From Nitrosomonadales bacterium (GTDB taxonomy: Bacteria; Pseudomonadota; Gammaproteobacteria; Burkholderiales; SG8-39), in contig SBAS01000130.1 in assembly GCA_005240145.1 (NCBI GenBank), positions 1 to 49,610 on the forward strand: a DNA stretch of 49,610 bases, read 5' to 3'. The notes under the pieces are model-generated. The model saw nothing but the letters and a program-made list of their open reading frames with translations. It was not told where the DNA came from and did not search any database. Below, in pieces: positions 1 to 16,355 of this stretch. Positions within the stretch are counted from its first letter, which is position 1. Each line of letters starts with the position of its first letter. Position numbers and translations under genes: made by a program.

Positions 1-346
1 GATGCAGGCCGTGCCGGTGCGGCACGCGCCCGGTCATCAAGGTCGCGCGCGAAGGCGAGCAGCTCGGCTCCGAGTAGCAGGAAGTGAGTTGCAGTCCCGA
101 GCGCGCGAGGCGATCGAAGGCTGGCGTTGGCGCGCCGACCGCCACGCCGCCGCCGTAGCAGCCGAAATCGCCCCAACCGACGTCGTCCATCAGGAACACC
201 AGCACGTTCGGCCGCTTGCCGCGGCGCTTGACGAAGTCGGCGATCTTCTGCTGCGCGGCCTTTGACTGGGCCGGATGCGCGAACGCGGGTTCGAGGTTGT
301 CCGCGGCACGAACGGTCGGCGATGCGATGGTGTCGAATGACGTCAT
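1..346 (-). CDS. Sulfatase (arylsulfatase family, formylglycine type), N-terminal part
   Basis: This is the first 115 codons of a type I sulfatase; the rest lies beyond the left edge. It should hydrolyse a sulfate ester to an alcohol and sulfate using a formylglycine nucleophile. The metal-binding Asp pair (FLMDDVGWGD, residues 51-60) and the modification motif CSPSR (Cys96) are both present in the expected spacing, so the catalytic head is intact. No signal peptide is evident; residues 1-45 are a polar extension. The ATG at 344-346 shares ATGA with the stop of the upstream TctC gene, which suggests translational coupling. It closes the visible leftward operon of ABC transporter, ferredoxin, P450, monooxygenase and TctC. 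The family is clear; the substrate cannot be told. The formylglycine-generating enzyme it needs is not in this window. Confidence 0.9.
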   Translation of the reverse strand, partial: MTSFDTIASPTVRAADNLEPAFAHPAQSKAAQQKIADFVKRRGKRPNVLVFLMDDVGWGDFGCYGGGVAVGAPTPAFDRLARSGLQLTSCYSEPSCSPSRATLMTGRVPHRHGLH

Positions 347-1308
347 TGGCCTTGCTCCTTCGCCAGCCCGGCGCGCACCAGCGTCGGGCGTATGTCGATG
401 AAGTATTTTTCCGCCCAGGCGCGGTATTCGGCCGAACTTTTGTACCAGACGGGCTGGATGAACTTGTGCAGCAGCGGCGCGTGTTCCGGGTCGTCCATTG
501 CCTGCTTGAACGCGTCGTGCAGCAACTTGATCACGCTGGCGGGGGTACCCCGCGGCGCGAGGATGCCGTAGGGGCTCCAGCCGACCGCGTCGATGCCTTT
601 CTCGCGCAACGTCGGCACGCCTTTGAAGCGGTCCGTCGGTTGCTCGGTGGCGAGCGCGAGGATGCGCACGCGGCCTTCGTCTGCAAGCGGGGCGAACTGC
701 GCACCGTCGGTGATGAAGTCGATGTGACCGCCGAGCAGCGCCGCCACCGCGTCCGGCCCGCCCTTGAACGGCACTTGCGTGAATTTCGCGCCGCTCGCCT
801 TCTCGATGTCGAGGAGAATCAGATGGCCGGTGCCGCCGTGTCCGGTCGAGCCGCTGGTGAGCTTTCCCGGATTCGCCTTTCCCGCGGCAATCAGGTCTTC
901 AATCGTCTTGTGCGGCGCATCCGCCTTTACCGCCACCGCGAAGGTGAAGTTCGACAGGCCGATTACATACTCCCAATCCTTCAGCGGATGATAGTTGGTC
1001 TGCTGGTAGTGGGGATAGCGCAGGCTGTTCACCGTCATCGCCGCGAGCGCATGCCCGTCGGGCGCGGCATTGAGCAGGAAGGTCGGCGCGAGCGTAGCGC
1101 CCGCACCCGGCTTGGGATCGACCGTGATCGGCTGGCCGAGCAGTTTCTGCACGCGCTCGGCGAGAAAGCGAAGATGGATGTCCATGATGCCGCCAGCCGG
1201 AAGCGCGCCGTAAAGCGTGATCGCACGCTGGGGAAAGCGCGTCTGTGCCCGCAGCGGCGCGGGCAGCACAGCCGCAGCAGCCGCAATTAGCAGTGTTCTA
1301 CGTTTCAT
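343..1308 (-). CDS. Tripartite tricarboxylate transporter binding protein (TctC/Bug family)
   Basis: This is a 321-residue periplasmic solute-binding protein. Residues 1-21 form an export signal (KRR, then an Ala/Leu-rich core, ending PAPLRA before Q22). The mature part shows Bug-family hallmarks: a Pro-Gly-rich first beta-alpha turn (YGALPAGG), the loop AAPDGHAL, and the GKLTSGSTGHGG ligand-loop region. Bug proteins bind carboxylates or other small polar ligands and normally pass them to TctA/TctB membrane subunits. No tctA or tctB is present here, so this is an orphan binding protein, as is common in Burkholderiales. A GGGAG ribosome-binding site lies 5 bases before the ATG. The stop overlaps the start of the sulfatase gene, so it may bind the same substrate or its product (inference). 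Confidence 0.9.
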   Translation of the reverse strand: MKRRTLLIAAAAAVLPAPLRAQTRFPQRAITLYGALPAGGIMDIHLRFLAERVQKLLGQPITVDPKPGAGATLAPTFLLNAAPDGHALAAMTVNSLRYPHYQQTNYHPLKDWEYVIGLSNFTFAVAVKADAPHKTIEDLIAAGKANPGKLTSGSTGHGGTGHLILLDIEKASGAKFTQVPFKGGPDAVAALLGGHIDFITDGAQFAPLADEGRVRILALATEQPTDRFKGVPTLREKGIDAVGWSPYGILAPRGTPASVIKLLHDAFKQAMDDPEHAPLLHKFIQPVWYKSSAEYRAWAEKYFIDIRPTLVRAGLAKEQGQ

Positions 1309-1332
1309 CTCCGCTCCCTGTCCAGATCACGG

Positions 1333-2928
1333 TTAACCCAGCACAAACCCTTCGTAACCCCGCGCCGCGACTTCGTTGCACTTCTCGACGTAGGGCGGAA
1401 ACCCGATCAGCGGCATGAACACGCGCGGCTTGCCGGGGACATTGGCGCCCAGATACCAGGAGTTGCAGGACGGGAACAGCGTCCGGTCGGCAACCGCGTT
1501 CACGTGCGCGCCCCACGCGGCCTCTGCCTCCGGGGCCGCCTCGATGCACTCGTGCTGCTCGCGGCGCATCCAGTCCAGGCACTCGCCGATCCAGTTCACG
1601 TGCTGCTCGATGGACACCATCATGTTGGTCAGGACCGAGGGACTGCCCGGCCCGGAGATGGTGAAGAGATTCGGGAACCCCGCGCTGCCCAGGCCGAGGT
1701 ATGTGCGCGGCCCGTCGCGCCATTTGTCGCGCAATGCAAGGCCGCCGCGGCCGCGTATGTCGATCGCCAACAGCGAGCCGGTCATGGCGTCGAAACCGGT
1801 CGCGAAAACGAGGCAATCGAAGGCATGCTCCACGCCCCCGCTGCGCACGCCGGCGGGCGTGATCTCCTCAAGGGGCGACTCGCGCAAATCGACAAGGCGC
1901 ACGTTGGGCCGATTGAAGGTGGCGTAGTAATCCGTGTCGACGCAAAGCCGCTTGCAGCCGATCGTCTGGCGCGGCATGAGGCGCGCCGCGGTCGCCGGGT
2001 CCTGCACGATCTCCTGGATCTTGCCGCGCACGAACTCGGCCGCGGCCGTGTTGGCTTCCGCGTTGAGCAGCAGGTCGTTGAAAGCGCCCATGAACGGCAG
2101 CCCGCCGTGCTCCCAACGCTTCTCGAAAGCCTGCGTGCGCCGGTCGGCGCCGACCGACAGAGCAGACGTTTCGTTGCGCGGAAGGTCCGAGCCGAACGCG
2201 TTCAGCATGCGGCTGTTGCGCGCGCGGAAGCCGGCATAGTCGGACTTGACTCGTGCTTCGTACGCCGGGTCGGTCGGACGGTTGCGCGCCGGCACCGAAT
2301 AGGTCGGGGTGCGCTGGAACACGACGAGCGACTTCGCCTGGCGCGCGATCAGCGGGATCGATTGGATCGCGGAGGAACCGGTGCCGATGACCCCCACCCG
2401 CTTTCCCGAGAAATCCACCGCGTGGTGCGGCCAGCGCCCGGTGTGGTATTGCTCTCCGGCAAAACGCCCGATGCCCTCGATCTCGGGCAGCTTCGCCGAC
2501 GACAGGCAGCCGGTGGCCAGGATCAGGAAGCGGGCCGATGTTTCCCACGTTTCGCTCGCGCCGCTCACAGTGACGCGCCAGCGTTCCGCGGCCTCGTCGT
2601 AGGCTGCCTTTTCGACGCGGGTGTTGAACTGGATATCGCCTTTCAGACTGAAGCGCTCCGCGACATGCTCGGCGTAGCGCAGAATTTCGGGCTGCGGCGC
2701 GTAGCGCTCGCTCCACTGCCATTCCTGCTGCAGCGCCTCGTCGAACTGGTAGGAATATTCGAGGCTGTCGACGTCGCAGCGCGCGCCAGGGTAGCGGTTC
2801 CAGTACCAGGTACCGCCGACGCCCGATCCCGCTTCGAACGCGCGTGCCCGCAGCCCCAGGCTGCGCGCCTTGTGCAGCATGTACATGCCGCCGAAGCCGG
2901 CGCCGACGATGAGGACGTCTACTTCCAA
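1333..2928 (-). CDS. Flavin-containing monooxygenase, Baeyer-Villiger type
   Basis: This is a class B flavoprotein monooxygenase of about 531 residues that would insert oxygen into a ketone (ester or lactone product) using NADPH, FAD and O2. Near the N-terminus the FAD Rossmann motif reads VLIVGAGFGGMY. The Baeyer-Villiger fingerprint F-x-G-x3-H-x3-W-P is present as FAGEQYHTGRWP, followed by the NADPH motif VIGTGSSA. The frame stays open to 3024, but those upstream codons lie over the P450 gene in another frame and look like shadow. I therefore take the TTG at 2926-2928, only four codons before VLIVGAG; no ATG or GTG suits better. It overlaps the P450 3' end by 10 bases. Its ketone substrate could come from the alcohol dehydrogenases across the divergent promoter. 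Confidence 0.88.
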   Translation of the reverse strand: MEVDVLIVGAGFGGMYMLHKARSLGLRARAFEAGSGVGGTWYWNRYPGARCDVDSLEYSYQFDEALQQEWQWSERYAPQPEILRYAEHVAERFSLKGDIQFNTRVEKAAYDEAAERWRVTVSGASETWETSARFLILATGCLSSAKLPEIEGIGRFAGEQYHTGRWPHHAVDFSGKRVGVIGTGSSAIQSIPLIARQAKSLVVFQRTPTYSVPARNRPTDPAYEARVKSDYAGFRARNSRMLNAFGSDLPRNETSALSVGADRRTQAFEKRWEHGGLPFMGAFNDLLLNAEANTAAAEFVRGKIQEIVQDPATAARLMPRQTIGCKRLCVDTDYYATFNRPNVRLVDLRESPLEEITPAGVRSGGVEHAFDCLVFATGFDAMTGSLLAIDIRGRGGLALRDKWRDGPRTYLGLGSAGFPNLFTISGPGSPSVLTNMMVSIEQHVNWIGECLDWMRREQHECIEAAPEAEAAWGAHVNAVADRTLFPSCNSWYLGANVPGKPRVFMPLIGFPPYVEKCNEVAARGYEGFVLG

Positions 2929-4109
2929 ACGACGCGCAGCGTGCGGGGCCCTCGCACCGTGCCCTCGGACCAGGTCACGCCGGCGGGATTCTCGAGCCGG
3001 AATTGCGGAATGCGCTTGAGCCATTCCTCGAGTGCCACGCGCAGTTCCATGCGCGCCAGATTCGAGCCGATGCAGCGATGGATGCCCAGGCCGAAGGCCG
3101 CGTGGCGGTTCTCCTGCCGGTCGAGCAATACCTTGTCGGCGTCGGGAAACATCTCCGGATCGCGGTTGGCCGCGGGAAAGGACAGCAGCACCATGGCGCC
3201 GGCCTTCATCGGGCAGCCGTTGATGGTCACGTCCTTCTTCACTTCGCGCGCCATGGTCACCGGCGCGTAGGCGCGCAACAGTTCCTCGACCGCGGTATCC
3301 ATGAGCGCGGGCTCAGCCACGAGGCGCGCCGTGTCCTGCGGATTTTTCGCCAGGTGCCACAGGCTCGCGCCGATGGCGCTCCAGGTCGTGTCGATGCCCG
3401 CGATGAGGAGCAGGCGCAGCGTGCCGATGATCTTTTCGGGTGGCAGCGGCTGGCCGTCCACGCGCTGGTCGCGCATGAAGGAAATCAGGTCGTCGCCCGG
3501 CATGTCACTGCGCTTCGCCAGCTCCTGGCCAAAATAAATCGTCATTTCCTTCAGCGATTCCGTGACCTTGGAGTTGTCGTGGATGCCCTCCTCCAGCGCC
3601 ATCTTGATCCAGCGCCGGTAGCGATCGCCATCCTCCTCGTCCATGCCGAGCATGTTGGCGATCACGCGCGTCGGGATGTGCTGCGCGTAGTCGGTCGCCG
3701 CGTCGCAAGAACCCTTATCGATGACGCCGTCGATCAGTCGGTTGCACAGCGCGCGCGTGCCGGGCGTGAGCTTCTCGATCGCCTTTGGGTTGAACGCGGG
3801 CAGCAACGGCATTCGCGCCGGACGGTGCTCGGGCGGATCGGAGGTGATCGGCGGCGCCGGCATCACCGGGTTGAATTTCTTCTCGCGCACGATCACGCGC
3901 CGCGACGAAAAGTGCTCTGTGTCGTAGGAAATCTCGCGCACATCCGCGTAGCGGGACGGGAAGAACGCGCCGTCCTCAAAGCGCTCGCTGCGCGCCATCG
4001 GACAGCGCTTCCTCAGGTCATCCCAGATCGGATATGGATCGTTGTTCCACGCCGGATCGGTATGGTCGAAATCGGTGGCCCAGTCCTTGACCGGCTGTTT
4101 CGTGCTCAT
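2919..4109 (-). CDS. Cytochrome P450
   Basis: This is a soluble bacterial P450 of 396 residues, normal length for class I. The I-helix oxygen-binding motif is AGIDTT (residues 237-242), the ExxR motif is EELLR (275-279), and the heme-thiolate loop is FGLGIHRCIG with Cys346 as the axial ligand. It should hydroxylate or oxidatively cleave an unactivated C-H or C-C position with electrons from the ferredoxin encoded 12 bases upstream. No ferredoxin reductase is encoded here, so one must come from elsewhere in the genome. Its 3' end overlaps the Baeyer-Villiger monooxygenase start, which ties the two oxidations together. The substrate is unknown. The general fold resembles CYPs acting on terpenoids, steroids or fatty acids, but that is only a guess from context. 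Confidence 0.96.
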   Translation of the reverse strand: MSTKQPVKDWATDFDHTDPAWNNDPYPIWDDLRKRCPMARSERFEDGAFFPSRYADVREISYDTEHFSSRRVIVREKKFNPVMPAPPITSDPPEHRPARMPLLPAFNPKAIEKLTPGTRALCNRLIDGVIDKGSCDAATDYAQHIPTRVIANMLGMDEEDGDRYRRWIKMALEEGIHDNSKVTESLKEMTIYFGQELAKRSDMPGDDLISFMRDQRVDGQPLPPEKIIGTLRLLLIAGIDTTWSAIGASLWHLAKNPQDTARLVAEPALMDTAVEELLRAYAPVTMAREVKKDVTINGCPMKAGAMVLLSFPAANRDPEMFPDADKVLLDRQENRHAAFGLGIHRCIGSNLARMELRVALEEWLKRIPQFRLENPAGVTWSEGTVRGPRTLRVVWK

Positions 4110-4121
4110 GGCGGCTCCCCC

Positions 4122-4340
4122 TCAGTTCTTCGCTGTCATGCGGATCGCGTGCTCGGGGCAATTCTTCACCGTGAGCCGTGCTTTCTCTTCCAGCTGCGGC
4201 GGCACCGCGCCGTCGCCCCTGGCTCGGGCATTGCCCAGGTCGTCGACCTCGAACAGCTCGGGCGCAATCGAGTAGCACCGGTTGTGGCCCTGGCAAAGCG
4301 CCGTCTCGACATGCACCTTGAATTTCTTCGGTTCGCTCAT
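4122..4340 (-). CDS. Small ferredoxin, CxxHxxC...CP type
   Basis: This is a 72-residue ferredoxin with Cys16-x2-His19-x2-Cys22 and a distal Cys61-Pro62. The position that would be Cys in a classic cluster is His19. This pattern is typical of small one-cluster ferredoxins ([3Fe-4S], or His-ligated [4Fe-4S]) encoded beside actinobacterial and proteobacterial P450 genes. It almost certainly delivers electrons to the P450 immediately downstream (12-base gap). The ATG at 4338-4340 gives a protein of standard length. No targeting signal is seen, so it acts in the cytoplasm. Confidence 0.93.
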   Translation of the reverse strand: MSEPKKFKVHVETALCQGHNRCYSIAPELFEVDDLGNARARGDGAVPPQLEEKARLTVKNCPEHAIRMTAKN

Positions 4341-4362
4341 GCGTCGTTTCCTGTGTTGGTGG

Positions 4363-5118
4363 TCACTGCCACTTCAAGAGCGCCCGCTCGAGCCGCGACA
4401 TGCCGCGCGTCACCAGCATCCCCAGGCAGGCGAGCAGCGCGAGCAGCCCCATCACGCCATTCATGTTGAAGGTGGCCTGCTGGTAGGACAATACCTGTCC
4501 CAACCCGTGCTCGGCGGCGATGATTTCGCCGCCGATTACCCCCAGCATCGAGAAGATCAGCGCCAGACGCAACCCGGAAAAAATGACCGGCACGGCGGAG
4601 GGGAGCGTTACCTTGAAGAAAATCTGCGACGGCGACGCACCCAGCGAGCGCGACAACGTGATGTGGTCGGGCGAAACGCCACGCACGCCCGCCACCGTGT
4701 TCGCCAGCACGATGAAAAACGAAAGGCTGGTGCCGATCGCGATCTTCGAGCCGATCCCCAGACCGAACCAGAGCAGGAACAGCGGCGCAAGCGCAATCCT
4801 GGGCATTGCATTCAGCACCATGAGGTAAGGGTCCATCGCCTGCTCGAGCTTCGGCAAGATCACGAACGCGAGGCCGAGCGCCATCGCCAGCGTCGCACCG
4901 AGCACGAAGGAGATCAGCGTGCCGGACACCGTGTAGCCCAGGTCGAGCCAGATTTTCTTCGATACCGCGAACCCGTCCCACAGGTAGGCCACAATGCCGG
5001 CCGGGCTGCCAAAGAACAGTTGCGGCAGGAATTCCGTGCGCGCGCCATACTCCCAGAGCCCGAGGAACGTGGCGATAAACGCGGCGTGCGCCGCATAAAC
5101 CCGAAGGCCGGCGGTCAT
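4363..5118 (-). CDS. ABC transporter permease (SsuC/TauC/NrtB-like)
   Basis: This is a 251-residue inner-membrane permease with about six hydrophobic segments. It carries the cytoplasmic coupling (EAA) loop around the segment reading SLGASPSQIFFKVTLPSAVPVI. The last segments (GLGQVLSYQQATFNMNGVM, then a hydrophobic stretch) match the nitrate/sulfonate/taurine permease family. The open frame extends to 5166, but the ATG at 5116-5118 gives the natural start MTAGLRVYAA and overlaps the ATPase stop as ATGA. With the ATPase and binding protein it makes a complete importer. Given the sulfatases nearby, a sulfonate, sulfate ester or similar anion is a reasonable but unproven cargo. Confidence 0.92.
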   Translation of the reverse strand: MTAGLRVYAAHAAFIATFLGLWEYGARTEFLPQLFFGSPAGIVAYLWDGFAVSKKIWLDLGYTVSGTLISFVLGATLAMALGLAFVILPKLEQAMDPYLMVLNAMPRIALAPLFLLWFGLGIGSKIAIGTSLSFFIVLANTVAGVRGVSPDHITLSRSLGASPSQIFFKVTLPSAVPVIFSGLRLALIFSMLGVIGGEIIAAEHGLGQVLSYQQATFNMNGVMGLLALLACLGMLVTRGMSRLERALLKWQ

Positions 5119-5888
5119 TCGATCATCGCCGGCGCGCCCTTCATGCCCGCCTCCAGCGCCTCCCAAAGGTCGGAGTAGATGTCGTGGAACTCGTGGCTCT
5201 TCTGTAGCGCGCGCACAGAGCGGGGCCGCGGCAGGTCGATCGGCATCTGCTTGACGATCCGCCCCGGCCGGGCGCTCATCACGATCACCCGGTCAGACAG
5301 CGCCACCGCCTCGCCCAGATCATGGGTGATGAAGACCACAGTGCGGCGTTCCGCGTTCCACAGCTCGAGCAGCAGGTCCTCGAGCTGGAGCTTGGTCTGC
5401 GCATCGAGCGCGCCGAAGGGCTCGTCCATCAGCATCACCGGCGAATCCAGGCAGAAGGTGCGCGCCAGCGCCGCGCGCTGGCGCATGCCGTGCGAGAGTT
5501 GCTTGGGCCAGTGCCGCTCGAAGTCCGCGAGACCGACGCGCGCGAGCAACTGCCGGGCCTTGGCTTCGCGCAGCTCCTTCGCGACGCCGCGGATCTCCAG
5601 GCCATAACTCGCGTTGGCAAGCGTCGAGCGCCAGGGCAGCAGGCTGTCGCGCGCCAGCATGTAGGCGACTTCCGGGTTGCCGGCGAAGGGGCGCTTGCCA
5701 AGGATCGAGATCCCGCCTGATTCGAGCGGCAGCAGGCCTGTGAGGAGGTTGAGGAGCGTCGTCTTGCCGCAGCCGCTCGGCCCGACGATGGAAACGAATT
5801 CGCCCTCCTCGATCTGGATCGAGACATCGTCCACGGCGAGCACGTCGCCAAAGCGCACCGTGAGGCGCTCGATCTCGATCGCCGCCAT
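5115..5888 (-). CDS. ABC transporter ATP-binding protein (SsuB/TauB-like)
   Basis: This is a 257-residue nucleotide-binding subunit. Walker A is GPSGCGKTT (residues 36-44), the signature is LSHGM (131-135, a variant of LSGGQ common in this subfamily), Walker B is VMLMDEPFGALD from residue 151, and the switch histidine sits in VVFITHDLGEA. It powers import with the permease that follows (4-base ATGA overlap) and the binding protein that precedes (17-base gap). Family assignment is firm. The cargo cannot be read from this subunit. Confidence 0.95.
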   Translation of the reverse strand: MAAIEIERLTVRFGDVLAVDDVSIQIEEGEFVSIVGPSGCGKTTLLNLLTGLLPLESGGISILGKRPFAGNPEVAYMLARDSLLPWRSTLANASYGLEIRGVAKELREAKARQLLARVGLADFERHWPKQLSHGMRQRAALARTFCLDSPVMLMDEPFGALDAQTKLQLEDLLLELWNAERRTVVFITHDLGEAVALSDRVIVMSARPGRIVKQMPIDLPRPRSVRALQKSHEFHDIYSDLWEALEAGMKGAPAMIE

Positions 5889-5905
5889 GCCGCGACCCCG
5901 GTGGC

Positions 5906-6916
5906 CTAGGGCGCCTTGTCGTGGACGAACTCGGAGACCGGCGGCGCCTTGTCGATCTGCTTGTTCTCGATCAGGAAGTCCAGACCGGCCTTGACGGCAT
6001 TTCGATTGATGGCGGCAGAGTAGGCCTTGGCGATGGCAGCTCGCCTGAGCGCTTCGCGCAGTACCTCGTCGCCCTTGGCCATTTCGAACTTGAAGTACGT
6101 CTCCGCGATCTTCGCCAATTCCTCGAAGTTTGCCGGGTTGTTGATGAATGCGTCGGCGTCCTTTACCGCTTTGATGACCGCTTCGATGACATGCGGGTTA
6201 CGGTCGATGTAGTCCTGCGTGAACACCTGGCCGTTGCCGCCGCCGTTGAGCGCGTACTGCGCGGCGGGCTCCTTGTCCTCCGCGCCACGCCAGATTACCT
6301 TGCAGGTGGCAAGCACCGTGCACATCGCGCCGGCCGGCTCGAACATCATGATCGCATCCACCTGCTTGGAGACCAGCGCGCCGTAAGCCGTGTTCGGTCC
6401 ACCGACCGCGACGAAAACGACGTCCTCCGCTTTCATGCCCGCCTTGAGAAACATCCAGGTGGTGATCATTTCCATCACCGACCCGCGCGCGGGAACGCCG
6501 ATTTTCTTGCCCTTGAAATCCTGCATGAACGCGGGCCAGCCCTTGCCCGCATTCGGCGTTTCAGTGTGGTTCCCCGCGATCAGCGCAGCGACGTTGGCGG
6601 TCGCACCGCCGACCACGAGCTTCATTTTCGCGCCCTTGGTGATGGCGCCGACCATGATCTCCGCGGGAAACAGCCCCGCATCGATGCTTTTCGCGAGCAG
6701 CGCCTGCGCCCCCAGCGGCCCGGACGGGATCACCTGCAACGTGCACTTGATGCCGTACTTGTCGCAATAGCCCTTGCTGATCGCCACACGCATCAGCATG
6801 TTGCCGATGCCGGGGTAGTCCTGGAACTTCACCGACTCGCCCTTGCCTTGCGCCCAGGCGCCGCCGCCCGCAATGAACGAAACAATAGCTACTAATCCGA
6901 TACGAAGCCGTTTCAT
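5906..6916 (-). CDS. ABC transporter substrate-binding protein (NMT1/SsuA-like)
   Basis: This is a 336-residue periplasmic binding protein of the nitrate/sulfonate/thiamine-precursor superfamily. It has a Sec signal (MKRLRIGLV, hydrophobic core, AWAQ at about residues 20-23). The mature protein shows the typical FQDYPG, GYCDKYGI and KKIGVPARGS segments. An upstream ATG-less frame runs to 6946, but the ATG at 6914-6916 is preceded by a strong GGAGGGGA ribosome-binding site, so I chose it. It is the first gene of the leftward operon and faces the TetR gene across an 86-base regulatory region. It is probably co-regulated by that TetR protein (inference). Confidence 0.92.
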   Translation of the reverse strand: MKRLRIGLVAIVSFIAGGGAWAQGKGESVKFQDYPGIGNMLMRVAISKGYCDKYGIKCTLQVIPSGPLGAQALLAKSIDAGLFPAEIMVGAITKGAKMKLVVGGATANVAALIAGNHTETPNAGKGWPAFMQDFKGKKIGVPARGSVMEMITTWMFLKAGMKAEDVVFVAVGGPNTAYGALVSKQVDAIMMFEPAGAMCTVLATCKVIWRGAEDKEPAAQYALNGGGNGQVFTQDYIDRNPHVIEAVIKAVKDADAFINNPANFEELAKIAETYFKFEMAKGDEVLREALRRAAIAKAYSAAINRNAVKAGLDFLIENKQIDKAPPVSEFVHDKAP

Positions 6917-6933
6917 CGCCTGTCCCCTCCCCA

Positions 6934-6947
6934 GTTGACCTGTCAAC
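6934..6947. promoter_or_regulatory. Inverted repeat, candidate TetR operator
   Basis: GTTGAC and GTCAAC form perfect 6-base arms with a 2-base spacer. The element lies in the leader of the leftward binding-protein gene and overlaps the -35 hexamer proposed for the rightward promoter. A dimeric TetR-family repressor binds this kind of short dyad. No binding data are available; the assignment rests on symmetry and position. Confidence 0.5.
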
Positions 6948-6964
6948 GCGGTAACGATTACTAT
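6935..6964 (+). promoter_or_regulatory. Candidate promoter for the tetR-sulfatase operon
   Basis: TTGACC (6935-6940) and TACTAT (6959-6964) are separated by 18 bases and lie about 40 bases before the TetR ATG. Five of six and four of six bases match the sigma-70 consensus. The -35 falls inside the inverted repeat at 6934-6947, which would give autorepression. Confidence 0.4.
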
Positions 6965-6965
6965 T

Positions 6966-6985
6966 TTCGAATCCTAATTCGAATT
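6966..6985. repeat. Paired TTCGAA palindromes in the divergent promoter
   Basis: TTCGAA occurs at 6966-6971 and again at 6978-6983, with starts 12 bases apart, so both copies lie nearly on the same helical face. The second extends to the perfect 10-base palindrome AATTCGAATT (6976-6985). The region is AT-rich against a GC-rich background and lies over the -10 region of the leftward promoter. It could be a second operator or simply an AT-rich promoter element. Confidence 0.45.
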
Positions 6986-7001
6986 TTTTGACGCCTGTCA
7001 A
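6973..7001 (-). promoter_or_regulatory. Candidate promoter for the ABC-P450-sulfatase operon
   Basis: On the minus strand a perfect TTGACA (7001 to 6996) is followed after 17 bases by ATTAGG (6978 to 6973), or after 19 bases by TAGGAT. It would drive leftward transcription toward the binding-protein gene at 6916. The -35 match is perfect; the -10 is weak. Confidence 0.4.
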
Positions 7002-7002
7002 T

Positions 7003-7677
7003 ATGGCTACGTCTTCGGCCCGAACCAAGGTTGTGCTGCGCCGCCACATCCGGCGTGCCGGCGTGCTGCGGGTAGTGCAGCCGCGCGCGGAGGCAACGCG
7101 TGACGCCCTGCTCGATGCCGGCCGCCGGCTCCTCAACGAACGCGACTTCGACGCCATGTCGATCGCCGATCTGGCGGCTGCCAACGCCCTTTCGGTCGGC
7201 TCCTTCTACGGCAGGTTCCGCGACAAGGAGGCGTATTTCGCGCTGCTCCAGGAGATGGTTACATCGGAGTGGACGGAAGCCACGCTGCGTGATTTCGACG
7301 TCCGGCGGCTGGCCGGATGGTCCGCAGGTCGGATCGTCCGCCTGGTTACCACCCAGGTGGTAAATGTCTATCGCAATGACCGAGGCTTCATCAGCGCCGC
7401 GCTGCGGCACGCCTCCACGCACCCGGGCGCATGGACGCCGCTCAAGCGCGCCGGCGCCCGATTCGCAAATGTCGTGACCGCGCTGCTTGCGCCACGCCTG
7501 ACGCATCTGCCGCGGATGGCACGTGCCGCGCGGGTGCGCTTTGCCATGCAACTGCTCTACGGGATGCTCATCAACGCCGTGCTGAACGATCCGGGCCCGC
7601 TCAATCTTGACGACCCACGCCTGGAAAAAGAACTGGCGCGCGCGCTGTCCGCCTACCTCGGATTGCGACCGCGATGA
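7003..7677 (+). CDS. TetR-family transcriptional regulator
   Basis: This is a 224-residue regulator. Residues around 30-75 form the TetR DNA-binding domain: helix 1 (ATRDALLDAGRRLL), the turn with MSIADLAAANALSVGSFY, and the closing RFRDKEAYFALL. The rest is an all-helical ligand-binding domain without recognisable motifs. A TTG at 6988 is in frame, but the ATG at 7001-7003 region (first base 7003) fits better. Its stop overlaps the alkylsulfatase start (ATGA). It is the first gene of the rightward operon and divergent from the ABC-P450 operon, so it likely represses both and responds to the catabolic substrate or an intermediate (inference from layout). Confidence 0.92.
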   Translation: MATSSARTKVVLRRHIRRAGVLRVVQPRAEATRDALLDAGRRLLNERDFDAMSIADLAAANALSVGSFYGRFRDKEAYFALLQEMVTSEWTEATLRDFDVRRLAGWSAGRIVRLVTTQVVNVYRNDRGFISAALRHASTHPGAWTPLKRAGARFANVVTALLAPRLTHLPRMARAARVRFAMQLLYGMLINAVLNDPGPLNLDDPRLEKELARALSAYLGLRPR

Positions 7678-9632
7678 GTGCGGCGGGAGAGCGCGGCAAG
7701 GACTCCGTCGCGCCCAAAGACGCGGCGCCCGGGACGCGTCGCGCCAACCAGGCCATCGGAGCATTGCTCCGCTTTGACGACACCGCCGATTTCGACGATG
7801 CCCGCCGCGGTTTCATCGGCACGCACGACAGCGGCGTGATCCGCAACGCGTCGGGAGCCGTGCTCTGGAATCTCCCGGCCTACCGCTTCCTGGACGGGCC
7901 CGAGGCGCCGCCCACCGTGAATCCGAGTCTGTGGCGCATGGCGCGCCTGAATCTCAATCACGGCCTTTTCAAGGCCGCCGATGGCGTCTACCAGGTACGC
8001 GGCTTCGACATTGCCAATCTCACGATCGTCGAGGGCGCCGAGGGCGTGGTCCTCATCGATCCTCTGACCACAACGGACACCGCGCGCGCGGCGCTGGAGC
8101 TGTACTACGCCCACCGCCCGCGGCGCCCGGTCAGCGCCGTGATCTACAGCCACAGCCATACCGACCACTACGGCGGCGTCAAAGGCGTGATCTCGGAGGA
8201 AGAGGTGCGTGCCGGCGGCGTTCAGGTCATCGCGCCGGCGGGTTTTCTGGAAGCCGTCGCCGGTGAAAACGTCCTCGCCGGCAATCCGATGGCGCGCCGC
8301 GCGCAGTTCCAGTTCGGCACATTGCTGCCGCCGGGGCCGCGCGGACAGGTGGACGCGGGGCTGGGCAAGGCCGTGGCGCGCGGCATCGTCAGCCTGATCG
8401 CCCCAACGATGGAAATCATGCAGGACGTCGAGACCCATATCGTGGACGGCGTCGAGATCACGTTTCAGCTGGCGCCGGGAACGGAAGCGCCGGCAGAAAT
8501 GCACATGTTCCTGCCGCGTCATGCGGTCCTCAACATGGCCGAGAACGCGACGCGGCATCTGCACAATTTCTGTCCGCTGCGCGGCGCCGTGGTGCGCGAC
8601 CCGCGCCAGTGGTCGCACTACCTGTCGCAGGCGATGGAGTTGTTCGGTGGCGGAAGCGACGTGCTCATCGGACAGCACCACTGGCCGACCTGGGGCAAAG
8701 AGCGGATCCGCGAGTTTCTCGAAAAGCAGCGCGACCTGTACAAGTACGTGCACGACCAGACCGTGCGGTTGATGAACCATGGCCGCAAGCCGGCCGAGAT
8801 CGCCGAGGTCCTCGAGTTGCCGCCGGAGCTTGCCCGCGAATGGTCGGTGCGCGGCTATTACGGCACGATCAGCCACAACGCGAAGGCTGTATATCAGCGC
8901 TACCTCAGCTGGTACGACGGCAATCCGGCGAACCTCAATCCGTTGCCGCCCGCGGAAACCGCGCGCAAGACGGTTGCGTACATGGGCGGCGCGGACGCGG
9001 CGCTGGCTCGCGCACGCGAGGATTTCGCTGCGGGCGAGTTCCGCTGGGTGGCGCAGGTGGCGAGCCAGGTGGTGTTCGCCGAACCCGACAGCCGCGACGC
9101 GCGCGAACTCGCCGCCGACGCGTTCGAGCAGCTCGGTTACCAGGCGGAATCGGCGACCTGGCGCAATGCCTACCTGTACGGCGCGCAGGAGTTGCGCAAC
9201 GGCGTCGCGCAGCTTCCTCCCCGGCCGATGCTCAGCCCCGACCTGATGACTGCGGTCACCACCGCGACACTCTTCGATTTCATCGCGATCCGACTCAATC
9301 CGGCGTCTGTCGCCGGCCGCAGCTTCGTGCTCAACTGGCACCTGACCGATACCGGCGAGCGCCTTGCTCAGACCTTGCGCCATAGCACGCTGACGCAGGT
9401 CATGGGGAAGACCGCGGCCAGCGCGGACGCAAGCATTGCCGCGTCGCGCGAAACGCTGGTCGCGCTGGTGCTGCGCAAAATAACCGTCGCGCAGGCGATG
9501 CAGGGCGGCAAGCTCGCCGTCGACGGGGATACATCGCTGATCGAAGCGCTGTTCGCAATGCTGGATGATTTCTCCATGCAGTTCGACGTCGTAACACCGG
9601 CGCGCGATTTGACCGCAAAGGAAAAGAAGTGA
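7674..9632 (+). CDS. Alkyl/aryl-sulfatase, SdsA1-like zinc hydrolase
   Basis: This is a 652-residue type III sulfatase. The metallo-beta-lactamase core carries HSHTDHYGG (zinc ligands His160, His162, Asp164, His165). The downstream glutamates are in GTEAPAEMH and in the AENATRHLHN segment, and the GQHHWPTWG segment matches SdsA1. A helical dimerisation domain follows, then a C-terminal SCP2-like domain (about residues 530-640) that in SdsA1 binds aliphatic chains. It hydrolyses primary or secondary alkyl sulfates to the alcohol and sulfate. Unlike secreted SdsA1 it starts with a polar segment and no obvious signal peptide, suggesting cytoplasmic action after uptake. Its stop overlaps the GTG of the GMC gene, so product alcohol and oxidising enzyme are co-translated. 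Confidence 0.93.
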   Translation: MSAAGERGKDSVAPKDAAPGTRRANQAIGALLRFDDTADFDDARRGFIGTHDSGVIRNASGAVLWNLPAYRFLDGPEAPPTVNPSLWRMARLNLNHGLFKAADGVYQVRGFDIANLTIVEGAEGVVLIDPLTTTDTARAALELYYAHRPRRPVSAVIYSHSHTDHYGGVKGVISEEEVRAGGVQVIAPAGFLEAVAGENVLAGNPMARRAQFQFGTLLPPGPRGQVDAGLGKAVARGIVSLIAPTMEIMQDVETHIVDGVEITFQLAPGTEAPAEMHMFLPRHAVLNMAENATRHLHNFCPLRGAVVRDPRQWSHYLSQAMELFGGGSDVLIGQHHWPTWGKERIREFLEKQRDLYKYVHDQTVRLMNHGRKPAEIAEVLELPPELAREWSVRGYYGTISHNAKAVYQRYLSWYDGNPANLNPLPPAETARKTVAYMGGADAALARAREDFAAGEFRWVAQVASQVVFAEPDSRDARELAADAFEQLGYQAESATWRNAYLYGAQELRNGVAQLPPRPMLSPDLMTAVTTATLFDFIAIRLNPASVAGRSFVLNWHLTDTGERLAQTLRHSTLTQVMGKTAASADASIAASRETLVALVLRKITVAQAMQGGKLAVDGDTSLIEALFAMLDDFSMQFDVVTPARDLTAKEKK

Positions 9633-11209
9633 CCGAGTTCGACTACATTGTCGTCGGCGGCGGTTCCGCAGGATGCGCCATCGCGGCACGCCTGTCCGAG
9701 AACCCGGCGGTCAGCGTGTGCCTCATCGAAGCGGGCGGCAACGGCCGCTCGATGCTCATCGACACGCCGCTGATGCTCGCGGTGACGGTGCCAAGGCCGA
9801 TCCACAACTGGGCCTTCGAGACCGAGCCGCAACCGGGCCTCGGCGGCCGGCGCGGCTACCAGCCGCGTGGCAAGGGCCTTGGCGGTTCGAGCGCTATCAA
9901 TGCCATGGTCTACATGCGCGGCCATCCGCACGACTACGACGACTGGGCGGCCGCGGGCAACGCAGGCTGGGGCTGGAAGGATGTCCTGCCCTGGTTCCGG
10001 CGCAGCGAGAACAACGAGCGCGGCGCGGACGAATTCCACGGCAGCGGCGGTCCGCTGAACGTGGCGGAACTGCGCTCGCCGCATCCGGCCTCGCTTGCAT
10101 TTGTCGAAGCGGGGGTGCAGGCCGGGCAGGTGCGCAACCGGGACTTCAACGGCGCCAGCCAGGACGGGGTAGGCCTGTACCAGGTGACGCAGAAAAACGG
10201 CCGCCGCTGGAGCGCGGCGCGCGCCTACCTGGACCAGACGGCGGGGCGCGGCAACCTGAGCATCCGCACCGGCCTGCGCGCGCTGCGCCTGAGCTTCGAG
10301 GGCAAGGCCTGCACCGGCGTCGTGACGTCGCAAGGGGAACTGCGCACGCGGCGCGAAACGATCGTTGCCTGCGGCGCATTCGGTTCGCCGCAGCTCCTCT
10401 TGCTTTCGGGCATCGGCCCGCAAGAGGAGCTGGCGCGCCACGGCATCTCCCTTCGCCATGGGCTGCCCGGCGTCGGCATGAACCTGCAGGACCATCCCGA
10501 CTACGTCGTCGGCTATTTTTCCCAGGCGCCGGGATTGCTGGGACTGACGCCACGCGGCTTCTACAACATGGCTGCGGGAATCCTGCCGTTCCGGCGCGAC
10601 GGCAGCGGCATCCTGTCCTCGAACATCGCCGAATCGGGCGGCTTCCTTCACTCCGAACCCCGGCTCGAGCGCGCCGATATCCAGCTGCATTTCGCCATCG
10701 GCCTGGTCGCGAACCACGGCCGCGACCGGGCGCCGCGCTACGGCTTCAGTTGCCACGCCTGCGTGCTGCGGCCAGAAAGTCGCGGCAGCGTCGGCCTTGC
10801 TTCGGCGGATCCGCTGGCGCCCCCACGCATTGACCCGGCGTTCCTGCAGGCCGAGGACGACGCGAGCCGATTGCTGCGCGGCGTCAAGATGACACTGGAC
10901 ATTCTCGGCCAGAAAGCCCTGTCCGCATACCGCGGCGCCAACGTTTTCGGCGAAGAAGGCGCCTCGGACGAGACGCTCATGCAACTCATCCGCCAGCGCG
11001 CCGACTCCGTGTACCACCCCGTCGGAACCTGCCGCATGGGCACGGACGAGATGGCGGTGGTCGATCCTCAGCTTCGCGTGCGCGGCATCGAACGCCTGCG
11101 CGTGGCCGACGCCTCGATCATGCCGACGCTGATCGGCGGCAATACCAATGCAGCCGCCATCATGATCGGCGAACGGGCCGCGGCCATGGTCAGCGGGCGG
11201 TCCGCATGA
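9629..11209 (+). CDS. GMC-family FAD alcohol oxidoreductase (choline dehydrogenase-like)
   Basis: This is a 526-residue GMC oxidoreductase. The N-terminal FAD motif is VVGGGSAG (about residues 8-15), followed by the GMC signature stretch with GKGLGGSSAINAM. Near the C-terminus the catalytic His lies in VYHPVGTCRMG and the partner Asn in GGNTNAAA. It should oxidise an alcohol to an aldehyde or ketone, passing electrons to the respiratory chain. The start is GTG, overlapping the alkylsulfatase stop (GTGA). Its position right after the sulfatase suggests it oxidises the released alcohol. It is not a close match to choline dehydrogenase by context: there is no betaine aldehyde dehydrogenase nearby. 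Confidence 0.92.
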   Translation: MTEFDYIVVGGGSAGCAIAARLSENPAVSVCLIEAGGNGRSMLIDTPLMLAVTVPRPIHNWAFETEPQPGLGGRRGYQPRGKGLGGSSAINAMVYMRGHPHDYDDWAAAGNAGWGWKDVLPWFRRSENNERGADEFHGSGGPLNVAELRSPHPASLAFVEAGVQAGQVRNRDFNGASQDGVGLYQVTQKNGRRWSAARAYLDQTAGRGNLSIRTGLRALRLSFEGKACTGVVTSQGELRTRRETIVACGAFGSPQLLLLSGIGPQEELARHGISLRHGLPGVGMNLQDHPDYVVGYFSQAPGLLGLTPRGFYNMAAGILPFRRDGSGILSSNIAESGGFLHSEPRLERADIQLHFAIGLVANHGRDRAPRYGFSCHACVLRPESRGSVGLASADPLAPPRIDPAFLQAEDDASRLLRGVKMTLDILGQKALSAYRGANVFGEEGASDETLMQLIRQRADSVYHPVGTCRMGTDEMAVVDPQLRVRGIERLRVADASIMPTLIGGNTNAAAIMIGERAAAMVSGRSA

Positions 11210-11281
11210 CTGCGCTTGGAGTCGAATTGGCGCGAATGCTTTCCACGTCTACTCGGCATGACAACGCATAAGGAATAGCGG

Positions 11282-12286
11282 ATGCAATGGCAACCATCGC
11301 GTTTTCGCAGAAGATTTCTGGCGGCTGGCGCCGCGCTCGGCGCGGGTGCGGCACTGCGCTTGCCTGCGGCGATTGCGCAAACCTATCCCGCGCGCGCGGT
11401 CAGGCTGCTGGTGCCCTTCGTCGCGGGCGGCGGCCCGGACGTAGTCTGCCGCTTCGTTGCTGATCGCATGTCGCGCGCGCTGGGCCAGCCGATGGTGATC
11501 GAGAATCGCCCTGGCGCAAACGGCATGCTCGGGCTGCAGGTGGTGCGGCAGGCCGCGCCCGACGGTTACACGCTGCTATACCTGTCGAGCGCGCAGGTAT
11601 CGGTGCAGGCGATGTCTCGTTCTGCCGACATCCTGCGCGATTTCGCGCTGATCGGCCGCATGAGCGACACGCCCTCGGTGCTGGTGGTTCCGCCCAAGTT
11701 GCCGCCCGCCAACCTGATTGAGCTCATTGCCTACCTGAAGAAGAACCCCGGCAAGCTCAACTACGGCACGGGCGGGGTCGGCTCGCCGAGCCACTTCGCT
11801 ACCGGTATGTTGCACAGCATAGCGGGGCCATTCGATAGCGTTCCAATCCACTACAAGGGTGCGCCGGAAATAGGCCATGCGCTGGCGCAAGGCGATATTC
11901 ATTTCACCATCACGATCGTCCCGCCCCTCCTGCCGCTGATCCGCCAGGGCCGGGTGCGGGCGCTTGCGGTCACCGCCTCTGAACGGCTCGCCGCATTGCC
12001 GGAGGTGCCGACCATGGCGGAAGCCGGCTTGCCGGCCTACCGGTTTCATTCCTGGGGCGGCATCGCCGCGCCCGCGGGAACGCCGCCGAAGATCGTCGAA
12101 CTTCTGCACCGCGAAATGAACCGTGTGCTCGCGAGCGCGGAAACCGCGGCGTTTGCCGACGCGATCGCCTCGCGTGCGGTGCCCAGCGAGTCGCCCGCGG
12201 CCTTTGTGGCATTCGTAAGGGAGGAACTGATGCGCCTGGAGAAGCTGGTGAAGGACTTCAATATCCGTCCGGAACAGGGATCGTGA
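11282..12286 (+). CDS. TctC/Bug-family solute-binding protein
   Basis: This is a 334-residue periplasmic binding protein. The N-terminus has a twin-Arg-like RRRFLAAGAALGAG and a hydrophobic stretch ending AIAQ before TYPARAVRLLVPF. Bug hallmarks follow: VPFVAGGGPD, VIENRPGANG, APDGYTLLY and GKLNYGTGGVGSPSH. AAGGA lies 8 bases before the ATG. A 72-base gap separates it from the GMC gene, the only sizeable gap in this operon, and nothing clear is seen in it. Its stop overlaps the GTG of the following sulfatase (GTGA). The same TctC-sulfatase pairing is found at the left edge on the other strand. No TctA/B subunits are encoded here. Confidence 0.9.
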   Translation: MQWQPSRFRRRFLAAGAALGAGAALRLPAAIAQTYPARAVRLLVPFVAGGGPDVVCRFVADRMSRALGQPMVIENRPGANGMLGLQVVRQAAPDGYTLLYLSSAQVSVQAMSRSADILRDFALIGRMSDTPSVLVVPPKLPPANLIELIAYLKKNPGKLNYGTGGVGSPSHFATGMLHSIAGPFDSVPIHYKGAPEIGHALAQGDIHFTITIVPPLLPLIRQGRVRALAVTASERLAALPEVPTMAEAGLPAYRFHSWGGIAAPAGTPPKIVELLHREMNRVLASAETAAFADAIASRAVPSESPAAFVAFVREELMRLEKLVKDFNIRPEQGS

Positions 12287-14517
12287 GCACGCCACCGACG
12301 GCGCAATTCCCGGGCAAGATCGGCCGCACGCGCGAGGAGTCAACGCCGCATTGGCCGCAGCCGCAAGCGGCGCCGGCCGGCGCGCCGAATATCGTCATCC
12401 TGTACATGGACGACATGGGCTGGTCCGATCCCGGCTGCTACGGCTCGGAGATCGAGACACCGAACCTCGACCGGCTGGCGGCGCGCGGGCTGCGCTTCAC
12501 CAACTACACCACGCACCCGATCTGCTCGCCGGCGCGCGCGGCACTGCTCACCGGCATGAACGCGCACTCAGTCGGCACCGGCTGGCTGGCGAACAACAAC
12601 GCCGGATTCCCGGGTTACACGGGCGAGATCCCGCTCGATGCGGCGACGCTCGCCGAGACGCTGCGCGAGCGCGGCTACTCCACGTTGATGACCGGCAAAT
12701 GGCACAACACGCCCACCCCGGACAGCCTGCCCGGCTCTCGCAAGGATCAATGGCCAACGCAGCGTGGCTTCGAGTCGTTTTACGGCTTCATGGAGGGAGA
12801 GACGAGTTTCTTTTTCCCCTCGCGGCTGATGCTGAACAACGCCTTGGTAGACATCGACGCCTATCCGGCCGGCTACTACAGTACCGACGACTGGACGCGG
12901 CAGGCCATCGGCTTCCTGCGCGACCTTCACAGCTCGCCCGCGCGCAAGCCGTTCTTCCTGTACATGGCGCAAAACGCGATGCACGCTCCTCTGCAGGCGA
13001 AGGAGGCCGATATCGCGAAATACCGCGGCCGCTACGATGCGGGGTGGGATGAGACGCGCGCAGCGCGCTATCGCCGCCAGGTGGACATGCGCTTGCTGCC
13101 TGCCGGCACGCGCCTTGCCGCATCGGATGCGATGACGCTGCCCTGGGCCCGTACCGACCCGGCCGATCGCGCGTTGTATGCGCGCCACATGGAGGTCTAC
13201 GCCGCGATGCTCGATTGCGTCGACCAGAATGTGGGACGCTTGACGACGTATCTCGAGGCGATCGGCGAACTCGATAACACGATCATCGTATTTTCCTCGG
13301 ACAACGGCGGTACTCACGCCGGCGGCCCAACCGGGTCGCTGTCGAACAACCGCCGCTTCAATGGCCTGCCGTACTTGCCGCCAGAGATCGAGCGCGCCGG
13401 AATCTCCAGGCTCGGTTCGGGCGCCCTGTATCCGCTCTATCCGACGGGCTGGGGCGAGGTCTCGAATACGCCCTTTCCGAACTTCAAGACTTACACCGGG
13501 GCGGGCGGGAGGCGTGTCTCGTTCATCGTTTCCTGGCCGGAGCGAATCAAGGACGGCGGCACGCTGCGCACGCAGTTCGCGCACGTCACGGATGTCATGC
13601 CGACGCTGCTCGATCTTGCCGGCGTCGCGCCGCTGACGCAGATTCGCGGCGCGCCGGCACGGCCGATGCACGGCGTGAGCCAGAAGCCGATGCTTCTCGA
13701 TCCGGGTGCTCCGGATGCGCGAACCGAACAGTATTACGAGTGCTGGTCGAATCGCGGTTTCTACCGCGAAGGCTGGTTCGCACGATCGCTGCAGAAGCGC
13801 GGCGAGCCGGTCGACTTCGACAACTGGACATTGCACGATCTGCGCGCCGATTTTTCCGAATCGGTCGACGTTCGCGGCGCGCACCCGGACAAGCTGGAAG
13901 AACTGGTCGAGGCCTTCGATCGAGCCGCGTGGGCGAACACGGTGTATCCGCTCGACAACCGCAGCATGCTGCAAAAACTGACGGAGCCGGGCCGCCCGCG
14001 GCATGCGGCGGCCGATGCTCCGCGGCGCTTCGAACCCGGAGGCCAGACGGTGCACCGTGCGATCATCGCGGCGCTCGTATCGGACCGCAACTTCCGCGTG
14101 GTGGCGCGCATCGCGCAAGGCGTCGCCGATGAGGGCGTACTGTGGTCGATCGGCGACGTGCAGAGCGGCATGGTGCTCTCGATCGAAGGCGGTGCGCTGA
14201 ACTTCTGCTACGTCGCGTTTGGCGCCGAAGTGCGATTCGCTGCCACCGCCATCGGCGCCGGCGAGCACGAGATCGTACTCGACTATGCGGCCCTCGGCGC
14301 GCGCAAGGGGCGCGGGCGACTGCTCCTGAATGGCATGGAACGCGTCACATGGACGGAACTCTCGCCCACGCTGCAGGTGCCATTTCACGAAGGGCTGGAT
14401 ATCGGCATCGACCGGCGAGGTCCGGTGGATTGGGCGCTCTACCAGCGCCGCGGCGTGTTTCGATATGCCGGAACGGTGCGCGAAGTCCTGATCGAGCCCG
14501 GCAAGCGCCCGGAATGA
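12283..14517 (+). CDS. Sulfatase, formylglycine type (arylsulfatase family)
   Basis: This is a complete 744-residue type I sulfatase. The metal site starts with YMDDMGWSDPGCYG (Asp43, Asp44), the formylglycine motif is CSPARAALLTG with Cys81, and later come KWHNTP and SSDNGGTHAGG, which carries the second Asp-Asn metal pair. The last 150 residues form a beta-rich C-terminal domain, longer than in small arylsulfatases and resembling the large PAS/choline-sulfatase-like group. No signal peptide is visible, so it is probably cytoplasmic. The GTG start overlaps the TctC stop and the stop overlaps an in-frame ATG upstream of the alcohol dehydrogenase. It is the second mechanistic type of sulfatase in this operon, implying either two ester positions or a mixture of substrates (inference). 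Confidence 0.92.
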   Translation: MSTPPTAQFPGKIGRTREESTPHWPQPQAAPAGAPNIVILYMDDMGWSDPGCYGSEIETPNLDRLAARGLRFTNYTTHPICSPARAALLTGMNAHSVGTGWLANNNAGFPGYTGEIPLDAATLAETLRERGYSTLMTGKWHNTPTPDSLPGSRKDQWPTQRGFESFYGFMEGETSFFFPSRLMLNNALVDIDAYPAGYYSTDDWTRQAIGFLRDLHSSPARKPFFLYMAQNAMHAPLQAKEADIAKYRGRYDAGWDETRAARYRRQVDMRLLPAGTRLAASDAMTLPWARTDPADRALYARHMEVYAAMLDCVDQNVGRLTTYLEAIGELDNTIIVFSSDNGGTHAGGPTGSLSNNRRFNGLPYLPPEIERAGISRLGSGALYPLYPTGWGEVSNTPFPNFKTYTGAGGRRVSFIVSWPERIKDGGTLRTQFAHVTDVMPTLLDLAGVAPLTQIRGAPARPMHGVSQKPMLLDPGAPDARTEQYYECWSNRGFYREGWFARSLQKRGEPVDFDNWTLHDLRADFSESVDVRGAHPDKLEELVEAFDRAAWANTVYPLDNRSMLQKLTEPGRPRHAAADAPRRFEPGGQTVHRAIIAALVSDRNFRVVARIAQGVADEGVLWSIGDVQSGMVLSIEGGALNFCYVAFGAEVRFAATAIGAGEHEIVLDYAALGARKGRGRLLLNGMERVTWTELSPTLQVPFHEGLDIGIDRRGPVDWALYQRRGVFRYAGTVREVLIEPGKRPE

Positions 14518-14537
14518 TTTCACTGAAAGGCCTGACT

Positions 14538-15599: not shown

Positions 15600-16355
15600 A
15601 TGAAAAACAAAGTCGTTCTGGTCACGGGCGGCGGTTCCGGCTTCGGTCGCGCGACGGCAACAGGCCTTGCGGCGCTGGGCGCGAAGGTCGTCGTCGGCGA
15701 CCTCAATCTGGAAACCGCGGAGGAAACCGCGCGCCTGGCACGAGTGGCCGGCGTCGAGGCCAGGGCGCAAAAGCTGGATGTCACGCAGGAGAAATCGGTA
15801 CAGGCCTTCACCGAGGGTGCGCTCAAGGCATTCGGCCGCATCGATGGTGCGTTCAACAACGCGGGCATCCTCGGCCCGTTGCAAGAGATGGCCGAGGTGC
15901 CGCTGGAGGATTTCGAGCGCGTGATGGCGGTGAACGTTCGCGGCGTGTGGTTGTGCATGCAGGCGCAGATTCGCGCCATGCTGCGGCAGGCGCCACCCGA
16001 AGGCGGCCATTCGATCGTCAACATGGCCTCAATCGCCGGCCTGGCTGCCAGCCCGATGCTGCCCGCCTACTCCGCCTCGAAGCACGCGGTGGTCGGCCTG
16101 ACGCGCTCCGCGGCGCGCAACTACGGCAGGCGCGGCATCCGCGTGAACTGTGTCTGTCCCGGGCCGGTTGAAACGCCGCTCGCGGAACCCCTGTTCGAGG
16201 CGAGCGGCATGCGGGAAATGATGCTGGCGCGCCAGTCGATGGCGAAATTCGGCACGCCCGGCGAAGTCGCGGCGCTGGTGCTGTGGCTGCTTTCGCCGGC
16301 CGCGTCGCTCGTCACGGGCACGCCGATGCGCGTGGACGCCGGGGCGCTCGCTTAA
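15600..16355 (+). CDS. Short-chain dehydrogenase/reductase (SDR)
   Basis: This is a 251-residue classical SDR. The cofactor motif is TGGGSGFG near residue 9, NNAG is present, and the catalytic Ser and YxxxK are seen in NMASIAG and AYSASKHAV. The C-terminal PGPVETPL is normal. The acidic residue after the second strand (VVGDLN) favours NAD(H). It starts directly after the alcohol dehydrogenase stop (TAA then ATG) and ends the rightward operon. It probably oxidises a secondary alcohol or 3-hydroxyacyl intermediate; the exact substrate is not readable. Confidence 0.92.
   Translation: MKNKVVLVTGGGSGFGRATATGLAALGAKVVVGDLNLETAEETARLARVAGVEARAQKLDVTQEKSVQAFTEGALKAFGRIDGAFNNAGILGPLQEMAEVPLEDFERVMAVNVRGVWLCMQAQIRAMLRQAPPEGGHSIVNMASIAGLAASPMLPAYSASKHAVVGLTRSAARNYGRRGIRVNCVCPGPVETPLAEPLFEASGMREMMLARQSMAKFGTPGEVAALVLWLLSPAASLVTGTPMRVDAGALA

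Follow-up and report, generated by a model that had tools for sequence, protein, structure and literature searches.

Introduction

In Streptomyces, TetR-family genes lying less than 200 bp from a divergently transcribed gene mostly repress that neighbour, as did five of the five that were tested according to PMC3511530. The same source describes the tetR/tetA pair, in which a gap of 81 bp holds two 15-bp operators, both promoters are repressed and the target is an efflux gene. As for the binding mode, PMC4150764 presents TetR, SimR and DesT as single dimers on 15-17 bp. CprB and QacR bind as dimers of dimers, QacR to 28 bp and CprB to an imperfect palindrome of 22 bp with its two dimers on opposite sides (same source). 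DarR from Rhodococcus is also described as a dimer of dimers, bound to overlapping palindromes (PMC10636190), and TetR-family repressors dedicated to P450 genes and displaced by fatty acids have been described in PMC3814354.

The locus considered here lies in a window (the whole stretch of DNA that was analysed) of 49.6 kb, where a TetR-family gene stands 86 bp from a divergent gene for a substrate-binding protein (SBP), within the 200-bp range of the Streptomyces cases. It resembles tetR/tetA in the divergent TetR-family gene, the short gap and the repression of both promoters, which is proposed here. Unlike tetR/tetA, with its two operators and efflux target, it would have one longer putative operator and an uptake and catabolic target. 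That operator, with 22 bp and two overlapping dyads 6 bp apart, is like those of CprB and QacR in length and layout, the likeness being drawn apart from the operator sequences. It differs from the DarR operator, which has 20 bp and another sequence and belongs to a regulator that binds c-di-AMP. By analogy, the binding modes of CprB and DarR make a two-dimer mode plausible for the window TetR. The P450-gene repressors offer a likeness of description; the P450 gene here is the fifth of its run.

On the sequence evidence set out below, it is highly likely that an autoregulating TetR repressor, acting at one operator shared by two face-to-face promoters, controls the SBP-ABC-P450 operon together with the tetR-alkylsulfatase operon. 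The architecture is an ordinary one, a textbook bacterial switch; here the putative operator has a sequence with recognizable counterparts in other bacteria. A TetR subfamily without a named NCBIfam equivalog thereby gains an operator open to testing, and a regulator is assigned to a locus of alkylsulfatase, sulfatase, SsuABC-like and P450 genes. No account of this regulator was found among the papers listed by the literature searches, as judged by titles and the beginnings of abstracts, and three strings of operator letters had no match in the papers searched, which does not show that the regulator is unstudied.

The intergenic region and its predicted opposed promoters

The gap (6917-7002) extends over 86 bp from the SBP start codon (ATG, minus strand, 6916-6914) to the tetR start codon (ATG at 7003), and contains promoter boxes for both directions (Table 1). 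A TTG at 6988 is a candidate alternative start of tetR. All the letters named in a preliminary description of the gap were found, namely both pairs of promoter boxes, GTTGAC-CT-GTCAAC (6934-6947) and TTCGAA at 6966 and 6978. The leftward promoter had been read as TTGACA-17-ATTAGG; the letters are there, but ATTAGG agrees with TATAAT at only 2/6 positions, and TAGGAT (6976-6971), with 4/6, is the better -10 box. The two -35 boxes (6935-6940 and 7001-6996) bound a common stretch of ~67 bp across which the promoters face each other, and the start points, predicted near 6971 rightward and near 6964 leftward, would both fall at the putative operator.

Table 1. Features of the locus, in positions of the window
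Feature	Position	Strand	Basis or remark
TctC receptor	343-1308	-	leftward run
Flavin monooxygenase	1333-3024	-	leftward run
P450	2919-4109	-	fifth gene of leftward run
Ferredoxin-like	4122-4340	-	leftward run; named by eye
Permease	4363-5166	-	leftward run
ABC ATPase	5115-5888	-	leftward run
Leftward run behind the SBP gene	343-5888	-	co-transcription inferred
NMT1/SsuA-like SBP, first gene leftward	5906-6916	-	profile matches
GTTGAC-CT-GTCAAC dyad of the preliminary description	6934-6947		judged a chance arm beside the rightward -35
Rightward (tetR) promoter, -35 TTGACC	6935-6940	+	same operator distance (32 bp) in L008
Rightward promoter, -10 TACTAT	6959-6964	+	spacer 18, same spacer in L008
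Proposed TetR operator, 22-bp frame TCGAATCCTAATTCGAATTTTT, oriented as tetR	6967-6988	+	top matrix match in window; identical in L008
Leftward promoter, better -10 candidate TAGGAT	6971-6976	-	spacer 19 (18 in L008); inside putative operator
Leftward (SBP operon) promoter, -35 TTGACA	6996-7001	-	TTGACG in L008
TetR-family regulator, 224 aa (TetR_N, TetR_C_15)	7003-7677	+	Pfam, NCBIfam
Rightward run behind tetR	7674-16355	+	putatively co-transcribed, judging by overlaps and short gaps
Alkylsulfatase	7674-9632	+	ATGA overlap with tetR
GMC oxidoreductase	9629-11209	+	rightward run
TctC-like	11282-12286	+	named by eye
Sulfatase	12283-14517	+	rightward run
Alcohol-dehydrogenase-like and SDR-like ORFs	after 14517	+	named by eye

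Chance levels were taken from dinucleotide shuffles of the 86-bp gap, under criteria chosen after the sequence had been seen. At least one dyad (6-bp arms, gap of up to 14) occurred in 15% of 5000 shuffles and at least three in 1.06%, against three in the gap itself, a pair of which is nested within one TTCGAA repeat. Of the 5000 shuffles, 0.26% had two TTCGAA words, and in 4/2000 both strands carried promoter-like pairs. Since 15% of shuffles hold one, a single dyad is unremarkable, whereas the TTCGAA pair and the two promoters do stand out.

The TTCGAA words had been described as paired palindromes at the leftward -10. Both words are present and conserved, but they form a single 18-bp inverted repeat, TTCGAAT-CCTA-ATTCGAA (6966-6983), rather than two palindromes. 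The operator frame overlaps this repeat. In the CGAATN hexamer repeat of this one putative operator the words make up repeats 1 and 3, repeat 2 being degenerate in the window. By its sequence, 6967-6988 is a palindromic element over both promoters, covering the start point predicted for the rightward promoter and the candidate -10 box of the leftward one. A second operator copy was not found in the 86-bp gap, where the other high matrix matches fall on the same element, offset by 6 bp or read from the other strand. The gap very probably holds one TetR operator able to shut two head-on promoters at once.

Comparison with the closest relative

At 1e-15, TetR homologues were found in 6/98 genomes of the family, the window's own included. 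None was found in the 12 other genomes of the same genus that were searched, several of them incomplete, and the class-level search returned the own genome only (1/275). The nearest TetR, 70% identical, is encoded in L008 (JACPYS010000028.1), which is apparently identical with contig G048:C36. The divergent run of this relative likewise comprises SBP, ABC ATPase, permease, ferredoxin-like and P450 genes, its SBP being 79% identical to that of the window, so that the pairing of SBP and TetR is retained. Its gap keeps GTTGACCT, a 36-bp block identical to 6953-6988. As proof by itself the block was set aside, for it ranks sixth in a comparison that also holds five exact runs of 38-45 bp. The leftward promoter, compared in this relative only, keeps GTCAA for its -35 box, with the spacer shifted by one base.

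Behind tetR the two loci differ. The next gene in L008 is a convergent TctC-like one, and a match to the alkylsulfatase gene (67%) is found farther along. Only in the window was an alkylsulfatase gene seen immediately after tetR, so that its control as part of a tetR operon is not conserved in L008.

The preliminary description had put forward two symmetric elements, with the conservation of both dyads in close relatives as a check. In L008, the one close relative found, the TTCGAA element is retained and the GTTGAC/GTCAAC dyad is not: TTGACC is still there, and GCCGGC stands in place of GTCAAC. Among the 32 related clade tetR promoters with TTGAC (see below), moreover, none has GTCAA within ten bases after it, and the first dyad was therefore discarded as an operator; on these comparisons it is the rightward -35 box with a chance arm. 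The same evidence bears on the idea of two separate operators, GTTGAC/GTCAAC serving the rightward promoter and the TTCGAA pair the leftward one. Both dyads are indeed present in the window, and the two operators of the tetR/tetA gap offer a described parallel (PMC3511530). Besides the missing partner arm, it is opposed by the frequency of dyads of such size in shuffles and by the two elements being unlike in sequence, and this arrangement is very unlikely.

Occurrence of the proposed operator before related TetR genes

TetR proteins 42-49% identical to that of the window are encoded in L015 (G250), L016 (G398), L018 (NC_007974.2) and L019 (NZ_CP043441.1), and in all four the 22-mer CCGAATCCGAATTCGAATACGG or a near copy lies between the promoter and the tetR start. 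L018 and L019 are named Cupriavidus records, and the genus of G250 is taken to be Cupriavidus. TetR homologues were found in 54/60 genomes of this genus. The 38 examined among these 54 comprise 32 with the site before the clade tetR (two of them weak), four with only a sister group lacking the site, one with other paralogues only and one without upstream DNA. TTGAC precedes the operator by 35-43 bp in 32/33 clade rows, and by 32 bp in the window and L008.

Distant homologues from the same family of bacteria were found in L004 (42%) and in L005 and L006 (33-37%, depending on the method). L004 carries CTGAATCCGAATCAATATTCGGATTCAG after a TTGACT promoter and before tetR. In L005 (23.7 bits) and L006 (31.0 bits), the element precedes an SBP gene that is followed by tetR on the same strand, the SBPs being 32% identical to that of the window.

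These arrangements weigh on a further alternative, in which TetR would repress its own promoter only and another regulator would set the leftward operon. The sites of the Cupriavidus clade precede tetR, which makes autoregulation the most widely seen role. Against a restriction to that role, the site of L005 and L006 precedes the SBP gene with tetR downstream, L008 retains the SBP gene next to tetR, and the putative operator includes the leftward -10 candidate. Control of tetR alone is accordingly improbable, though it is the strongest of the competing explanations. Weaker than any other is the notion that the conserved block is promoter DNA only, made of opposed -10 boxes with no protein site. 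Both -10 candidates do lie within the block identical in L008, but in the Cupriavidus clade and in L004-L006 the motif is situated 3' of the promoter boxes, and it tracks the TetR subfamily while the rest of those promoters differs. This leaves promoter DNA alone hardly credible, and a single shared TetR operator is the preferred explanation.

The site is absent from L003, L007 and L116-L119, the last being grouped with the clade, and no site was found before tetR in L020, L021 and L022, whose TetR proteins are 28-31% identical by tblastn (30% for L021). A 19.5-bit place in L021 (3467-3488), inside a neighbouring MBL-fold gene and ~490 bp before tetR, was taken as chance. A search of plasmids with the SBP gave no match at 1e-30.

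In the group L116-L119, the nearest to the TetR clade that bears the operator, a stretch of the recognition helix is similar (ELSVGAFYGRFRDK), but the operator is missing, and the 200 bp upstream show no TTGAC box by eye. Another arrangement was seen in L084, L085, L086 and L087 (G490, G486, G524 and G540), and perhaps also in L088, where two homologues of the window TetR stand tail to tail within ~1.3 kb. None of L084-L088 is among the operator-like upstream regions.

Matrix of the proposed operator and its match in the window

A matrix was built from 18 distinct sites in 33 Cupriavidus-clade rows, with the window and L008 left out. The motif had first been noticed in the window, the consensus for picking the clade sites was taken from L019/L015, and the 33-row clade was defined after the upstream regions had been inspected; of the TetR matches in the genus of G250, 30 loci and 40 further regions were examined. 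L116-L119 were left out of the clade because they have no site (support 99/99 for the joint group and 84/69 for the separating fork), and counted together with them the site occurs in 34/38. L120, without upstream sequence, was dropped.

The 22-bp consensus consists of three CGAATN hexamers. Positions 4, 11-15 and 17 are invariant, and positions 2, 3, 5, 6, 16 and 18 each deviate in a single site. Over the 18 sites, which are related members of one clade and not independent, identity is 0.63 at period 6 and 0.68 at period 12. Over the same related sites, the two overlapping dyads, centred at 8.5 and 14.5, pair at 0.71 and 0.78, compared with 0.61 at centre 11.5 and 0.06-0.45 at other centres. 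In the window's own site the two dyads pair at 6/8 and 5/8.

In the 49.6-kb window, the best match is 6967-6988 with 31.6 bits (37.1 for the consensus). The three that follow coincide with it apart from a 6-bp shift or a change of strand, and the next independent one has 11.3 bits. The maximum in 40 simulated windows was 22.0 bits, with a mean of 13.0. Within 400 bp upstream of tetR, 34/34 clade rows reached at least 18.8 bits and 32/34 at least 28.5, largely by construction, as 33 of these rows built the matrix. Among the 55 other rows, at least 18 bits upstream of tetR were found only in the window, L008 and L004, the next value being 15.2; L005 and L006 are counted in the 55 because their site stands before the SBP gene, more than 400 bp from tetR. 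On the TetR tree the operator label takes 6 changes, against a mean of 29.1 when shuffled, with near-copies helping the clustering and L053 (identical to L018) left unlabelled although it bears the operator. By these comparisons the motif goes with this TetR subfamily, which supports the earlier proposal of two opposed promoters and of control of both operons by the adjacent TetR.

Genome-scale scans

Scanned at up to two mismatches, the 19-mer element appears, among the 98 family genomes, only in the two carrying a close TetR. In 399 genomes of the order, the 17-mer core has two exact matches (G250 and G398), each a short way upstream of a TetR homologue. Allowing at most one mismatch gives 30 places in 24 genomes, of which three adjoin a TetR homologue (L023, L024 and the window's own L041); such matches are mostly background, because the other 27/30 have no TetR homologue beside them. 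Five genomes of the order draw have a TetR homologue at 1e-30, and two of these, G026 and G092, are without any place at up to one mismatch. The search tool's backwards-pattern control was rejected as an estimate, since its word composition differs.

The window's own genome has three places for the 17-mer core at up to two mismatches. The best besides the window site, at about 1497-1518 of L134 (G000:C119), has 22.2 bits and is overlapped on the opposite strand by an open frame of 325 codons that may be spurious; this place is likely background. In a scan for a wider regulon, 30 of the 31 places found were scored, one being without a locus, and in G000, G048, G026, G080 and G075 the places ranged from 10.0 to 31.8 bits, known sites included. 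Two places not beside a known TetR reached 25.4 bits (L137) and 28.6 bits (L144, in a CGAATA repeat), which puts scores in the twenties at the level of genome-scale background. Since 20-29 bits occur at such unrelated-looking places, the weaker sites of L004 (20.1), L005 (23.7), L069 (18.8) and L070 (19.2) rest on position. A tandem CGAATC array was also noticed at G091:C30:25046-25092 (L038, L047, L049-L052), and the loci fetched there have no TetR homologue.

Proposed regulation and gene content

The window TetR has an N-terminal TetR_N helix-turn-helix, with 41 bits for PF00440 (cut-off 24) and 36.5 for PF17918 (cut-off 26.8). Six families of named NCBIfam equivalogs (CurR, ScbR-like, AcrR, AcuR and others) all scored far below their cut-offs, the best with 29.4 of 300.

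According to the proposed mechanism, TetR would bind 6967-6988, covering the rightward +1 region just after the -10 box as well as the leftward -10. Polymerase would probably occupy one promoter at a time, because both promoters share one stretch of ~67 bp in opposite orientation and each polymerase would cover the other's promoter. Bound TetR would exclude polymerase from both. The operon of SBP, ABC, ferredoxin-like, P450 and monooxygenase genes would thereby be repressed, and tetR would be autoregulated, being repressed along with the alkylsulfatase, GMC and sulfatase genes behind it. Release would probably be brought about by an organic, perhaps sulfated or sulfonated, substrate or early product, which is a guess. 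The sequence itself displays the promoter-like boxes, the conservation of the putative operator and the tie between motif and TetR subfamily; from these we infer binding, repression rather than activation, the extents of the operons and the ligand.

A more specific reading is offered tentatively and is somewhat less likely than not to hold: the TetR subfamily would read (CGAATN)x3, with two dimers on opposite faces of the DNA via the dyads 6 bp apart, and use it here as one 22-bp bidirectional switch of an organosulfur uptake and oxidation locus. This subfamily is common in what is taken to be Cupriavidus and scattered among uncultured Burkholderiales-like bacteria. Given the clade site in that genus, the targets and the inducer could be sought in a culturable strain.

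The combination of an SsuABC/TauABC-like transporter, a P450, a flavin monooxygenase, an alkylsulfatase and a sulfatase suggests an organosulfur or sulfate-ester substrate. The region 343-16355 around the one regulator is a candidate sulfate-ester or organosulfur catabolic island, and it holds two TctC-type receptors, one of them named by eye.
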